DNA of 36,892 bases from Bacteroidota bacterium. GTDB lineage: Bacteria > Bacteroidota > Bacteroidia > Bacteroidales > VadinHA17. The stretch covers positions 1-36,892 of the forward strand of contig QKCK01000172.1 in NCBI GenBank assembly GCA_003245695.1, given 5' to 3'. The notes below the pieces were generated by a model. The model made no database searches, was not told where the DNA came from, and saw only the letters and a program-made list of their open reading frames with translations. Within the stretch, counting starts at the first letter, position 1. Every line of letters begins with the position of its first letter. The translations under genes and the position numbers were made by a program. Positions 28,449 to 35,479 of this stretch are shown in pieces.

Positions 28449-29603
28449 TCAGAAACTATATCTCAGTCTTAAAAAACCAAGATTAAGTCTTGTCTCAAGG
28501 CCGGTAATTGTACTGTGGAAATACTGCCACATGACAGAAAGGTCCAGGTTTTCAGTTGCAGAAAGGTCTAAAGCCGGGCCTGCAAAGAGACCGTTGAGGT
28601 CAGGGTACCAGATAGCAGATCCTGTCAGACCAAGCAAAGGCATTGGGTTCCATGTCACCTGCGCCATGGCAGTTATCTCCGAGAAAGCCAGCTTTGTGGC
28701 ATCCATACCCCCGTAATAGAGCTGCGAAAGGTTCCATAGCTGTAAAGGTTTATTACAATACATAACCTGGGCCATAGCTGTGAAACTGTCAGAGAAAACC
28801 TTGTCAGTGCCAATAGTAACCATTAATGTTGCTGATTTATCTGTCCTGTCGTCGACAGGTTTAAACCACGAAGCCTCGCCACGCAATGAATATGATCCTA
28901 TGGCCCCTGACCATCCGGTACCGGCAACAAATTGTTCCTGAGACATCTCCCCGGTGATAAACTGAACATCAAATCCTTTGATACTGAACCTGTACAAAGC
29001 TGCTGCAGTTATCCTGCCGTCATGTTCAGCTTTGACAGCTACCTCTGCAGAAGAGGAGGGTGTAGTAGAATAGATTATCTGAACAGCATCGCTTCCCGGT
29101 CGCTCAACATAGTCAAAGTCAAAAAAAGAATATGTATTGAAGATATCATTGGGATTCCATACCATAGTCTGACTCCAGTTAATACGCTGCCGGCCGGCTC
29201 TTAACTGAAAATTGCCCCTGTTGTATTCCACCCAGAGTCTGTCAAGCATGGTGTTGAAGATAAATCCTTTTTCATCAACCAGGTTCCATGACATATCAAT
29301 CCAGCCCGGGTCTTCCTCAAGTGATTCAGCATAGTATGGATTGGATGAGACCATATTACCGGTAACAGCCCTGTTGCGTATCTCTGCCCCCACAATGAAT
29401 GAGTTGCCTCCATATGCCTTTAGGTTAATCCGGTTGTGGATCATATTACTGTTAGTCCATGGACCAGTGATGCTGTCAAAAATTGCAGAATAAACCCAGT
29501 TAACATAACCTGAACAGGTTATGTTCTGCCCCTTCTCCTGAGCAAAAAGAGTCTGAGCGGCAGACAAAAAAATGAGTAATATAATAACCGTTGCTCTCCT
29601 CAT
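28449..29603 (-). CDS. Outer-membrane beta-barrel protein of a LolA-like/ABC operon
   Basis: Signal peptide, alternating strands, RAGRQRINWSQTMVWNPNDIFNTYSFFDFDYVERPGSDAV, C-terminal Phe. Confidence 0.7.
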   Translation of the reverse strand: MRRATVIILLIFLSAAQTLFAQEKGQNITCSGYVNWVYSAIFDSITGPWTNSNMIHNRINLKAYGGNSFIVGAEIRNRAVTGNMVSSNPYYAESLEEDPGWIDMSWNLVDEKGFIFNTMLDRLWVEYNRGNFQLRAGRQRINWSQTMVWNPNDIFNTYSFFDFDYVERPGSDAVQIIYSTTPSSSAEVAVKAEHDGRITAAALYRFSIKGFDVQFITGEMSQEQFVAGTGWSGAIGSYSLRGEASWFKPVDDRTDKSATLMVTIGTDKVFSDSFTAMAQVMYCNKPLQLWNLSQLYYGGMDATKLAFSEITAMAQVTWNPMPLLGLTGSAIWYPDLNGLFAGPALDLSATENLDLSVMWQYFHSTITGLETRLNLGFLRLRYSF

Positions 29604-29608
29604 AGATC

Positions 29609-30292
29609 TCAGCGTCGTTCATCTGACACCACACGACCATCTTCAAGAGTAATAATACGGCGTGCCCGTCTGACAACCCGTGAGTCGTGTGTTGAAAAGA
29701 TAAATGTCATCTCTTCGTCCCTGTTTAGCTTCTCCATAATATCAAGAAGCGTATCTGTTGATTTTGAATCGAGGTTGGCAGTCGGTTCATCAGCCAGGAT
29801 AAATTCAGGTCGTGTTGCCAGGGCTCTTGCCACGGCAACGCGTTGCTGCTGTCCTCCCGACAGCTGCGAAGGTCTGCTGTTACCTCTGTCAGCCAGCCCG
29901 ACTGAATGAAGCAGCTCGTCAGTCCGCTTTTTCCTCTTATCTGCAGGCCAGTGCTGCAGATTCATAATAAAGCCTATATTCTCTGATGCAGTCAGGACGG
30001 GGATAAGATTATAAGACTGAAAGACAAACCCCACATGTTCCATTCTGAAATCAATCAGTTCAGAAGGCCGCAGCTCAGAAAGCCTGTGTCCCGCAACAAT
30101 TATCTCGCCGTCAGTTGGCTGGTCAAGACCTCCGATAAGATTCAGAAGGGTAGTCTTACCTGAACCTGAAGGGCCAACCACAGCAGCAAACTCACCCCTC
30201 TCAAAACTGAGAGTCACTCCATTCACAGCTGTCACCGCCACTTCTGTGTCATGATAGGTCTTATATACCTCATTAATCTCAAGTACATTCAT
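29609..30292 (-). CDS. ABC transporter ATP-binding protein (LolD/MacB-type)
   Basis: GPSGSGKTT, LSGGQQQRVAVARAL, LADEPTANLD; start MNVLEINEVYKTY at 30292 preferred. Confidence 0.92.
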   Translation of the reverse strand: MNVLEINEVYKTYHDTEVAVTAVNGVTLSFERGEFAAVVGPSGSGKTTLLNLIGGLDQPTDGEIIVAGHRLSELRPSELIDFRMEHVGFVFQSYNLIPVLTASENIGFIMNLQHWPADKRKKRTDELLHSVGLADRGNSRPSQLSGGQQQRVAVARALATRPEFILADEPTANLDSKSTDTLLDIMEKLNRDEEMTFIFSTHDSRVVRRARRIITLEDGRVVSDERR

Positions 30293-30332
30293 GATGTCTG
30301 TTTTCTTTTTACATTTTATCTTTTTCAGCCTC

Positions 30333-31778
30333 CTACTTCTCACCCCTGAGTGCCTCAACGGGATTGAGTTTAAGAGCCTTACGCGCCGGATATACAGATG
30401 ATATAATGCCTGTCAGAATAATCAGGCAGGCTGTTATTGTAAAAAAGAGAGGATCAATTACCGGAAAGAGATTTACCGAATATCCTATCGCCTCCATCCC
30501 TTCTGAGTAATTAACCAGATTAATGCCATTCCTTGATGTAACAGCAATAATAACCATCCCCACTATCATGCCGGATATTCCACCTATTACGGACAGAAAA
30601 ACAGATTCCGTCATTATCATTGCAAAGATCTTTTTTCTGTTCATCCCTATTGCAGCCAGCATTCCTATTTCGCGTGTTCTTTCGAGCACAGCCATAAGCA
30701 TTGTGTTAACAATTCCGAAAGCCAGGGCAGCAAGGATTATTATCATGAAAAGAGCATATATCTGCTGCATGAAGTCAGCCAGCATAGCCAGGTCAGGTGA
30801 TATCTCCTTCCAGTTAAGAACCTCCAGTGAAGGCAGTGCAGCCCTCACCTCCCGGGTAACCCTGTCTGTAATATCATTATCAGTCAGTCTGGCAATAATC
30901 CTGTGGTAGTTACCAGGCTCTATACCAGTTAGAGAGCATAGTTCATCATAAGGAACAAAAACCGAAGAAGTTTCAAACATATCATTGTTGGTACGGAAAA
31001 TACCTGTGATCCTGAAGGTTGCTCCTGTCTGATTCCCTTCACAATCAACAAAAGTGAATACAATTCTTGATCCCTCCCTGTATGACCATGCTGAAGAGAA
31101 AACCTGTCCCGAGTATTGCCTGAACTCCTTATGCGAAAGAACATTTCTTAATTCAGCCTTCAGTTTCTTCTCTGATACAAAACGCACACCCCTGAATTGT
31201 TCAAGCTTCAAAATAACTTCCTGTGGTATATCCGATTCCGACATCTTGTTAAAAGCCTCATCATCCATCATGTACCTGACAATATTGAGCTCTTTTGCCA
31301 GCTTCTCACCAATATATGCAGTGTTGTACTTCGTCTCACCCTGGAAAAATCCACCTGTTCCGGGAATAACCTTTTCACCGAGAGTGAAGATATGCCTCTC
31401 CTTTTCCGGATCAATTCCAACAAGCATAACGCCAGTGCTCTTCCTTGCTGTAGATGCCATCGCCTGAACAATAATACGTCCTGTTGCATCTTCCACTCCC
31501 TCAGTTGTGAGTATCTTCTCAAACAGGGTATCCAGATCAGGAATAAAGTCGTTTATATCATTGCTGCTCCTGAAATCCTTGTTGTTTATCTGAATATGCG
31601 ACAGCTCTTCGTTTACGGCTGAGTCAATGCGCTGAACCACACTGCTGTTCATTACAGCAATAGAAAAAACACCCGCAAAAACACCAATTGTCATCGCGGC
31701 TATCACAATCAGACTTCTGACCTTGTTACGCCAGACATTTTTCCATGCAATCTCTATTATCATGGTCTTTATTATCAT
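30333..31778 (-). CDS. ABC transporter permease (FtsX/MacB/LolCE-type)
   Basis: AWKNVWRNKVRSLIVIAAM; periplasmic domain; FtsX C-terminal ERTREIGMLAAIGM..YPARKALKLNPVEALRG. Confidence 0.9.
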   Translation of the reverse strand: MIIKTMIIEIAWKNVWRNKVRSLIVIAAMTIGVFAGVFSIAVMNSSVVQRIDSAVNEELSHIQINNKDFRSSNDINDFIPDLDTLFEKILTTEGVEDATGRIIVQAMASTARKSTGVMLVGIDPEKERHIFTLGEKVIPGTGGFFQGETKYNTAYIGEKLAKELNIVRYMMDDEAFNKMSESDIPQEVILKLEQFRGVRFVSEKKLKAELRNVLSHKEFRQYSGQVFSSAWSYREGSRIVFTFVDCEGNQTGATFRITGIFRTNNDMFETSSVFVPYDELCSLTGIEPGNYHRIIARLTDNDITDRVTREVRAALPSLEVLNWKEISPDLAMLADFMQQIYALFMIIILAALAFGIVNTMLMAVLERTREIGMLAAIGMNRKKIFAMIMTESVFLSVIGGISGMIVGMVIIAVTSRNGINLVNYSEGMEAIGYSVNLFPVIDPLFFTITACLIILTGIISSVYPARKALKLNPVEALRGEK

Positions 31779-33187
31779 GCCCTGAGGGCGTTAATAACAT
31801 TTATCCTGTAAATCTTTCTTATGCAGAAAAACACTGCAATTACCAGCATTATCAGAACTACAAGGGTCTGCCAGAGATAATATGTATCAGGCAACATAAA
31901 TGGCATAACAGGTTCAAAGCCATAATCCTCATACATCCTTGCCATCTGACCGGTGAAACGTATAGGGTGAGTATTAAAATAAAATGCAAAAGGTATAGTT
32001 GCGATTACTCCGGTAATTAATCCGAGCAGACCCATCAATATCAATTCAATTGACACAACCTTTGCGAGTCTTCTTTTTTGCATTCCTATTGAGATAAGCA
32101 TCCCGAATTCTCTTTTCCTCTCTGACATCATCATCAGTACAGTACCAAAAACACCAAAGGCAATAACAAGATAAAGAATACCAATCATTATCAGACCGCT
32201 TTTGCTGTCAGCTTCCATCTGGTTAACCAGTATTTCATTCATCTCCTGCCATACGAGTACCTTTAGAGGAGAGCTAAGCGTTGAAGAAATTCTTGTCTTT
32301 GTCTCAGCTATAGCCTCTTCAGAGTTGTCTTTTATATCTAATACAGCTGATGTAACCATCCCTGGTGTATCATAAAATAATCTTGCCGAATTGACCGTCA
32401 GATAAACAATCTTATTGTCTATATCGGGTGTTGGAAGCTTTACTATTCCGTCTACCACATATTTTGCTGCAGCTGAAGAAGCATGATACCCCTGACCTAC
32501 CATAACCAGAGTGTCCCCCACATTCAGATGAAGATAAACAGAGAGCTTATCGCCAATAAGTACCCCTGGAGAAGTCTCACCGAAGTAACCATTCGGGAAT
32601 GATGCCTTTTTTCTGATAAGAGGTAGTATCACAGCAGTATCAGACTCTTTCAGGTCAAGGTCTGCCATCAAACGGCCCACGCTTGAATATGACTCATTCT
32701 CAAAAAGAGGCAATAACTTCTTAATCTTGTCAGGCACTGAATCCTCAGACATCTCTTTTACTATCTCAGGTGTAAACCTGTACTTCACCAGCCGGTCCTT
32801 TATCCCAGAAACCTCATTCTCAAGTACCGGATCAATACCCATAACAATCACTCCCTGTGTGCGATTTCCACTTGCAGCTAAAGCAAATGATTCGATGCGT
32901 GGGATAACTTTGTCAATGTTTTTATCAGCCTCAAGAGCAGATACCTGCTGGTCTGAAAGGACGAAGCAATTGTCAATAACAGGCTCATCAGCAAAGGCAG
33001 AGTCCTGTATCTGAAGATATCCTGTATATGATTCAATCACATTTTTAAACATGTGATCGTAAGTCCCCAGCTGAAATGATCTCATAACAAGAGCAAAGAA
33101 GACAGCAAAGAAGACAGAGGCAGCTGTTATCATCGTTCTCCTGCGGTTTCGCCAGAGATTCTTCCATGCAAGTTGATAATCTTTCAT
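31775..33187 (-). CDS. ABC transporter permease (FtsX/MacB/LolCE-type)
   Basis: AWKNLWRNRRRTMITAASV..SERKREFGMLISIGMQ..INALRA; 4-bp overlap with next permease. Confidence 0.9.
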   Translation of the reverse strand: MKDYQLAWKNLWRNRRRTMITAASVFFAVFFALVMRSFQLGTYDHMFKNVIESYTGYLQIQDSAFADEPVIDNCFVLSDQQVSALEADKNIDKVIPRIESFALAASGNRTQGVIVMGIDPVLENEVSGIKDRLVKYRFTPEIVKEMSEDSVPDKIKKLLPLFENESYSSVGRLMADLDLKESDTAVILPLIRKKASFPNGYFGETSPGVLIGDKLSVYLHLNVGDTLVMVGQGYHASSAAAKYVVDGIVKLPTPDIDNKIVYLTVNSARLFYDTPGMVTSAVLDIKDNSEEAIAETKTRISSTLSSPLKVLVWQEMNEILVNQMEADSKSGLIMIGILYLVIAFGVFGTVLMMMSERKREFGMLISIGMQKRRLAKVVSIELILMGLLGLITGVIATIPFAFYFNTHPIRFTGQMARMYEDYGFEPVMPFMLPDTYYLWQTLVVLIMLVIAVFFCIRKIYRINVINALRA

Positions 33188-33991: not shown

Positions 33992-34624
33992 CTACCTGTA
34001 TCTTGATATTATTGCATCAACCATTTTTTCATAATATGGTGTACTATATAGCTCTTCAGAAAAGAGGAAGGTAAGCGCAAAACCCTTTAGTGTATTTACA
34101 AACATAAGCATCTCAATCATCGGATCATACGACTCATCACTGCCATTACCCCTGGCTGTAAAATACTCAATGAACATTCTTACCATCTCCTGGCTGAAAA
34201 CCCTCATATTTTCACCACCTCTTTTTACCAGATCATTCTCCCTGACAAAAAGACGCTCATATACATCATTCTGCATCATTATTGCAAAAAGCAACCGCCA
34301 GAACCGGCTCTTCTCCCTTATTATATCAAATATCTTTCTTACAAAAACTTCAAACTCCTCAACTGAAAGGTGGCCATCATGATCAGTGTCAAAAGAAGAG
34401 TAAAGCTCATCAATAGACTCTGAAACTATCTCGGCAAGGATATCGTCCTTGCTTCTGAAGTAATTATATATCAATCCTTTTGATATCCCTGCTTTAGCAG
34501 CAATTGTGCTTATTGTGGTGCTGTGAAAACCCAGGTCAGCAAAACAGGTAAGAGCAACCTCTTTTATCAAGGCACGCTTTGCCTTCCTTATGGTATCATA
34601 TTGTCTTGCAGTCCGTGGTGACAT
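33992..34624 (-). CDS. TetR family transcriptional regulator containing an EF-hand-like loop
   Basis: HTH ADLGFHSTTISTIAAKAGISKGLIYNYFRSKDDILAEI; DTDHDGHLSVEE; start MSPRTARQ at 34624 preferred because the promoter/operator covers the longer N-terminus. Confidence 0.9.
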   Translation of the reverse strand: MSPRTARQYDTIRKAKRALIKEVALTCFADLGFHSTTISTIAAKAGISKGLIYNYFRSKDDILAEIVSESIDELYSSFDTDHDGHLSVEEFEVFVRKIFDIIREKSRFWRLLFAIMMQNDVYERLFVRENDLVKRGGENMRVFSQEMVRMFIEYFTARGNGSDESYDPMIEMLMFVNTLKGFALTFLFSEELYSTPYYEKMVDAIISRYR

Positions 34625-34633
34625 AGCTACTTT

Positions 34634-34655
34634 TTTGACTGAACGTCCGGTCAAA
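34634..34655. promoter_or_regulatory. 22-bp near-perfect palindrome, candidate TetR operator
   Basis: TTTGACTGAAC|GTCCGGTCAAA; half-sites match at 9 of 11 positions. Confidence 0.75.
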
Positions 34656-34690: not shown

Positions 34691-35479
34691 TCAATATGCA
34701 TTCAGAAGATTTTTCATCTTTTCAACTTCACCCGCTCCCTTTCCCTTTTTCAGTATTTCATTCAGCCAGGTACCATACATGGGATTAGGAAGAATAATAT
34801 AACTGGTTCCAAAAAGTGCTTCATTCCCGTCAACCGTATCAAATGAGGGAGCGTCAGGGCGTTTTTCCCATATACCGTCAAAATCACTCAGACTGTCACC
34901 TATCAACAATACAATATTATATCTGTCTGAGATTCTATTACGCCTGGAAACCTTCGATGAGTTCTCACCCATAAGCATTACATGAACACTGTCGGCTCCC
35001 GGAAAACCTTCAGCCGAGAGATTTCTGACAGTGGCATCGAATACAGATGAGCTCCTGTTTGAAACATAAAAAAGTGTCACACCCAGCGAATCTGCAAAGC
35101 GGGTGAATGACAGTGCGCCGGGCAGTGCTTTTGCTTTTTCCATAACAACCCACTTGTTCCAGAGCTCTTCAGAGTATTGCACCTCATTCAGTATCAGCCA
35201 TGCTTCAAACGGACTGTTATCAAGGATTGTCTCATCTATATCGAGCACAACTGCAAGCGGTTTGCCATCATTTGCACTGGCTGTCTTTTCCTCAAGCGCT
35301 CTCTTTGCATTCCTGTAGCATTGAATATACAAAGCCCTCATCTCACCTGACTTCTGATACCATAAAACAGGAAGGAGCAATTCATCCTGTGATTCCTTTA
35401 TATTGGAAGCAGGTATAACTCTATGACTACAGGCTGACAATAGCAGTAGTATCAAAAAATAAAATAGAGTGTGCTTCAT
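34691..35479 (-). CDS. 5'-nucleotidase, lipoprotein e(P4)-type HAD acid phosphatase
   Basis: Lipobox LLSACS; AVVLDIDETILDNSPFEAW; FYVSNRS; LLIGDSLSDFDG. Confidence 0.9.
   Translation of the reverse strand: MKHTLFYFLILLLLSACSHRVIPASNIKESQDELLLPVLWYQKSGEMRALYIQCYRNAKRALEEKTASANDGKPLAVVLDIDETILDNSPFEAWLILNEVQYSEELWNKWVVMEKAKALPGALSFTRFADSLGVTLFYVSNRSSSVFDATVRNLSAEGFPGADSVHVMLMGENSSKVSRRNRISDRYNIVLLIGDSLSDFDGIWEKRPDAPSFDTVDGNEALFGTSYIILPNPMYGTWLNEILKKGKGAGEVEKMKNLLNAY

Follow-up and report, generated by a model that had tools for sequence, protein, structure and literature searches.

A TetR-family regulator with an EF-hand-like loop between helices alpha4 and alpha5, and a possible calcium input to envelope transport in Bacteroidota

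Introduction

In TetR proteins, helix alpha4 carries the ligand-binding signal to the DNA-binding domain. The regulator described here shares its fold and helix-turn-helix with the acyl-CoA-responsive FadR of Bacillus and FasR of Mycobacterium, both among its top structural matches, at about 20% sequence identity; we know of no EF-hand loop in the FadR or FasR structures. With calmodulin, calbindin D9k and neurocalcin it shares the 12-residue loop, the flanking hydrophobic residues and the helix-loop-helix arrangement. Unlike those EF-hands, its loop is single and unpaired, lies inside a DNA-binding regulator, and is framed by helices that belong to the TetR fold itself. The animal EF-hand transcriptional repressor DREAM/KChIP3 has been described (PMC3027194). 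In it, repression is under the control of Ca2+ loading of the EF-hands. It would thus work in a similar way if the Ca2+ switch proposed below is right, but it has an unrelated fold, carries several EF-hands and is eukaryotic.

Calcium loops of the Dx[DN]xDG type occur in many unrelated folds and have been explained by convergence within existing loops, in a study that makes no mention of TetR regulators (PMC3123361). Compared with such loops elsewhere, the apparent in-place origin of the TetR loop can be traced on a tree that includes loop-free orthologues. A described cousin of the operon studied here is the TetR-MMPL-LolA-hypothetical operon of Porphyromonas gingivalis (HMPREF1322_RS06000-06015), whose genes rank with those most strongly over-expressed when hemin is limiting (PMC10470040). 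There, as here, a TetR gene adjoins a gene for a LolA-like lipoprotein-sorting protein and a transporter, but the transporter is of the MMPL type instead of LolCDE-like ABC parts. The open-licence literature on TetR proteins with EF-hands, calcium or this operon yielded neither a paper nor a solved structure for a TetR with an EF-hand, and no description of any one-component transcription factor bearing an EF-hand could be found, although the architecture may already figure in automatic domain databases.

Results

The window is a 36,892-nt stretch of contig QKCK01000172.1 of a Bacteroidota bacterium; the features discussed are listed in Table 1. The ATG at 34624 was taken as the start of the TetR gene on the grounds that the MSPRT start is kept among relatives. 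The TTG at 34654 in the open reading frame list was rejected, as it overlaps the predicted operator and relatives do not start there. The product matches the TetR_N domain (PF00440) at 57 bits against a cut-off of 24 (E 1.6e-15). An AlphaFold2 model built on a 60-sequence alignment (pLDDT 93, pTM 0.86) has the all-helical C-terminal domain of the TetR fold, with TM scores of 0.5-0.66 to TetR structures in Foldseek. The closest solved folds all came from TetR proteins, FadR and FasR among them (E about 3e-5), and none of the matches listed is described as an EF-hand TetR. FadR also gave the best NCBIfam score, although at 51.2 bits against a cut-off of 200 the protein falls outside the FadR equivalog.

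Table 1. Features of the EF-hand TetR locus (window coordinates)
Feature	Position	Strand	Evidence or remark
TetR-family regulator with EF-hand, 210 aa	33992..34624	-	ATG 34624, stop at 33992 (coding part 34624-33995)
TetR_N helix-turn-helix DNA-binding domain	34427..34561	-	Pfam match
Helix alpha4, residues 59-75, counterpart of EF-hand helix E	34400..34450	-	AlphaFold2
EF-hand 12-residue loop DTDHDGHLSVEE, residues 79-90	34355..34390	-	ORF translation, Pfam, alignments
Helix alpha5, residues 88-104, counterpart of EF-hand helix F	34313..34363	-	AlphaFold2
Predicted operator TTTGACTGAACGTCCGGTCAAA	34634..34655	.	2 mismatches from phylum-wide palindrome TTTGACTGAACGTTCAGTCAAA
LolA-like outer-membrane lipoprotein-sorting protein, PF17131	33219..33989	-	Pfam; 2 nt past TetR stop
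FtsX/LolCE-like permease 1	31775..33187	-	Domain matches
FtsX/LolCE-like permease 2	30333..31778	-	Domain matches
LolD/MacB-like ABC ATPase	29609..30358	-	Domain matches
Outer-membrane protein, last operon gene	28449..29603	-	Conserved position

An earlier note, made from the sequence, had placed the regulator beside an envelope transport operon that it would control. The adjacency is borne out: the TetR gene is the first of the operon, and the predicted operator is conserved. The last gene product had no Pfam or NCBIfam match; its GRQRINWSQ..VWNPNDIF stretch is reminiscent of DUF1302 barrels. The same gene order is found 3' of nearly all homologues with enough flanking sequence, with or without the loop. 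At the 29 loci of a phylum-wide search, the LolA gene was downstream in 18, divergently upstream in 8 and in neither position in 3 within the stretch examined. In one loop-free lineage (L114-L134 of genome family f58), the TetR gene does not head the operon but is divergent from the LolA-FtsX genes, and it has the same operator upstream. Just upstream of the TetR gene of the window is a gene for a HAD class-B acid-phosphatase-like lipoprotein (34691-35479, minus strand), and a dozen relatives also have it upstream, nearer or farther away.

Like other TetR-family genes, that of the window appears from its sequence to have a palindromic operator near its own promoter. With up to five mismatches, the palindrome TTTGACTGAACGTTCAGTCAAA was located upstream of 82 of 91 members with the EF-hand and 25 of 30 without it, as compared to 0 of 2420 shuffled regions. 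Since operon and operator are common to both kinds of orthologue, DNA recognition would be independent of the loop, and the loop an added function.

The twelve loop residues lie in the stretch C-terminal to TetR_N, FDTDHDGHLSVEEF, and read in context as SIDELYSSF-DTDHDGHLSVEE-FEVFVRKIF. Read from the ATG at 34624, residues 79-90 fall at 34390-34355 of the minus strand, exactly where the earlier note had seen a canonical EF-hand loop. Ligand-type residues are present at loop positions 1, 3, 5 and 12, with glycine at 6 and a hydrophobic residue at 8, and the phenylalanines at -1 and +13 are the hydrophobics typical of EF-hand flanks. In Pfam, EF-hand_7 scored 37 bits against a cut-off of 30 (E 4.5e-9), and EF-hand_1 scored 24.9 bits in the protein scan, just below its cut-off of 25.4, and 27.3 bits, above cut-off, for the same loop when the 3.59-Mb genome was scanned in six frames. 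The other Pfam EF-hand models stayed below cut-off. A PDB search with the segment alone, its first residue entered as Q instead of E, returned calmodulin, neurocalcin and calbindin D9k among the best matches (E 1e-9 to 1e-7). EF-hand_7 is a pair model and its match spreads over residues 71-161; no second loop is visible there, and we treated the span as an artefact of the model. Neither Pfam nor alignment revealed a second EF-hand loop in the protein, so that the usual, though not obligatory, partner is missing.

Chance was rejected as the source of the motif. The loop is conserved among homologues, as described below. It is the best and the sole above-cut-off EF-hand_1 match in the six-frame scan of the genome, whose seven other TetRs all lack the motif. 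The strict motif occurred 6 times in 478,942 residues of unrelated open reading frames, or 0.0026 expected per 210 residues. Shuffling the TetR protein itself produced it in 181 of 200,000 shuffles. The EF-hand likeness is a correct observation and is beyond chance.

In the AlphaFold2 model, helix alpha4 (59-75) is followed by a coil (76-87) and helix alpha5 (88-104), a helix-loop-helix, predicted there with high confidence, in the position proposed earlier for the loop. As modelled, the EF-hand-like unit sits at the alpha4-alpha5 hinge and is built from the TetR's own two helices. A permanently bound Ca2+ or Mg2+ might merely stiffen this hinge, while the signal would be a different ligand, such as an acyl-CoA bound in a FadR/FasR-like pocket. 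This structural role is the main rival to a regulatory one. It draws on the acyl-CoA-responsive FadR and FasR being the closest solved folds and on stabilisation of structure being a common role of Dx[DN]xDG calcium loops (PMC3123361), and it would explain strong selection on the ligand positions equally well. We nevertheless consider it unlikely: the loop lies exactly on the allosteric hinge, and homologues without it are predicted to fold, so that the fold would not need a metal staple. In one loop-free orthologue (L121), the predicted alpha4 is longer (58-76), and a short helix (78-82) with a turn of three residues separates it from alpha5 (86-103).

When 100 related genomes were searched, the loop was present in all 29 of the best homologues (36-51% identity) found besides the window protein. 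The wider set held 123 distinct homologues, of which 93 have an EF-hand loop (71 strictly canonical, 22 variant, in most cases N1 combined with S6 or D6) and 30 do not, most of these belonging to different Bacteroidota families and classes. The named members come from Bacteroidales-type metagenome-assembled genomes: Prolixibacteraceae, Salinivirgaceae, Lentimicrobiaceae, Marinilabiliales and unplaced Bacteroidota, with two labelled Chlorobiota. Every EF-hand member of the wider set has Glu at position 12, but as these members were selected by pattern, the invariance of D5 and E12 there is partly circular. The clean test is an alignment of 21 homologues, 34-50% identical and picked regardless of the loop: just 25 columns are invariant, D83 (loop position 5) and E90 (position 12) among them, and L86 (position 8) is nearly invariant. 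The loop is conserved across wide divergence. In the same genus as the window, one genome (G006) has only the C-terminal 118 residues of the TetR in frame (L151); its helix-turn-helix part was not found.

These patterns bear on two further readings. The acidic residues could act solely as helix caps and salt bridges of a metal-free hinge, the EF-hand likeness being accidental convergence; acidic, proline-rich caps (DPYEKL) stand at the same place in loop-free orthologues, and several subclades tolerate the N1 and S6 variants. Yet positions 1 (D/N), 3 (D/N), 5 (D), 6 (G/S), 8 (L) and 12 (E) are held jointly while 2, 4, 7 and 10 are free, as is typical of Ca2+ ligands rather than of helix caps, and 14 of 21 members match EF-hand_1 at E<=0.01. 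A metal-free hinge is accordingly very improbable in our judgement. EF-hand-like loops are able to take Mg2+ and Mn2+, and the regulator could instead sense another divalent ion, Mg2+, Mn2+ or Fe2+. The strong induction of the cousin TetR-LolA operon of P. gingivalis at hemin limitation (PMC10470040) may speak for such a sensor. Against it, Glu12, which does not vary in the unselected set either, points to seven-coordinate Ca2+ rather than Mg2+, and all-oxygen ligands are ill-suited to Fe2+ or Zn2+; we regard it as improbable.

On a tree built without the loop columns, the EF-hand label needs 3 changes, compared with a shuffled mean of 26.9 (25-28 in the rooted tree). Loop-free members fall mostly outside the EF-hand clade; L063 and L126 are apparent losses inside it, and L111 and L116 lie near its base or are unresolved. 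In L063 (6001-6660), within the clade, a five-residue insertion breaks the loop (DADIPYISHDRPLSPDE). An inserted EF-hand domain was rejected, given that no length is added relative to many loop-free orthologues. In most loop-free members the linker has the same length as in EF-hand members or is one residue shorter, and this unchanged length favours an origin in place. Rooting with paralogous TetRs put loop-free members at the base, but weakly, on an outgroup with very long branches and one row inside the family. Gain of the loop is likely, as opposed to loss, and from these alignments it looks like an extra input with roughly a single origin, formed in place and with no increase in linker length.

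The earlier note had counted against its own reading any orthologues that keep the operon and lack the acidic loop residues. This is partly the case: 30 homologues lack the loop, most of them with the same operon, but they branch outside the EF-hand clade or as losses within it (L063, L126). Because of this branching, their lack of a loop reads as lineage-specific gain elsewhere in the family, rather than as absence of constraint.

Discussion

As we picture it, the TetR gene would head an envelope-transport operon and regulate itself, its product being a FadR/FasR-shaped repressor predicted to bind the palindrome just upstream. In one large clade of Bacteroidota, the alpha4-alpha5 hinge would have turned into an EF-hand loop that holds a divalent cation. 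Lodged between alpha4 and alpha5, the cation would fix their angle, so that metal loading may re-orient one helix against the other and thereby alter affinity for the operator. Ca2+ is the likeliest cation because position 12 is always Glu. That the hinge of an autoregulated repressor binds a divalent cation, probably Ca2+, which sets its DNA affinity, seems to us an evenly balanced proposition. The loop, its conservation, the predicted fold, the operon and the operator are established here, whereas metal binding and Ca2+ control are what we infer; which way the switch works, and what signal it answers to, is a guess. Resting cytosolic Ca2+ is low, and its entry through a damaged envelope would therefore be a sensible inducer of an envelope-transport operon: damage would let Ca2+ into the cytosol and release repression of the LolA/LolCDE-like genes. 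A second ligand may occupy the usual TetR pocket.

Several points weigh against the Ca2+ switch. Orthologues without the EF-hand seem to manage the same operon, and the loop appears to have been lost in two members inside the clade (L063, L126). A lone EF-hand without a partner tends to bind weakly, and the cytosol holds sub-micromolar Ca2+ against millimolar Mg2+. Most members of the window's own genus, moreover, have Asn at position 1 and Ser at position 6 (NPDHDSHLTPEE), which should weaken metal binding.

These proteins probably form a new Ca2+- or divalent-metal-responsive subfamily of TetR regulators. The use of cytosolic Ca2+ as a regulatory signal by bacteria is a long-standing question, and the family is directly testable: it combines one small protein with a predicted operator of 22 bp and a fixed target operon, and loop-free orthologues can serve as natural controls. 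It also bears on the origin of EF-hand-like loops, since this one seems to have taken shape within a linker that was already there and kept its length. Somewhat short of an even chance, in our estimate, is the fuller account: a bacterial one-component Ca2+ switch in which the TetR hinge evolved in place into an EF-hand, so that cytosolic Ca2+ would be linked to outer-membrane lipoprotein or lipid traffic in a large part of the Bacteroidota.
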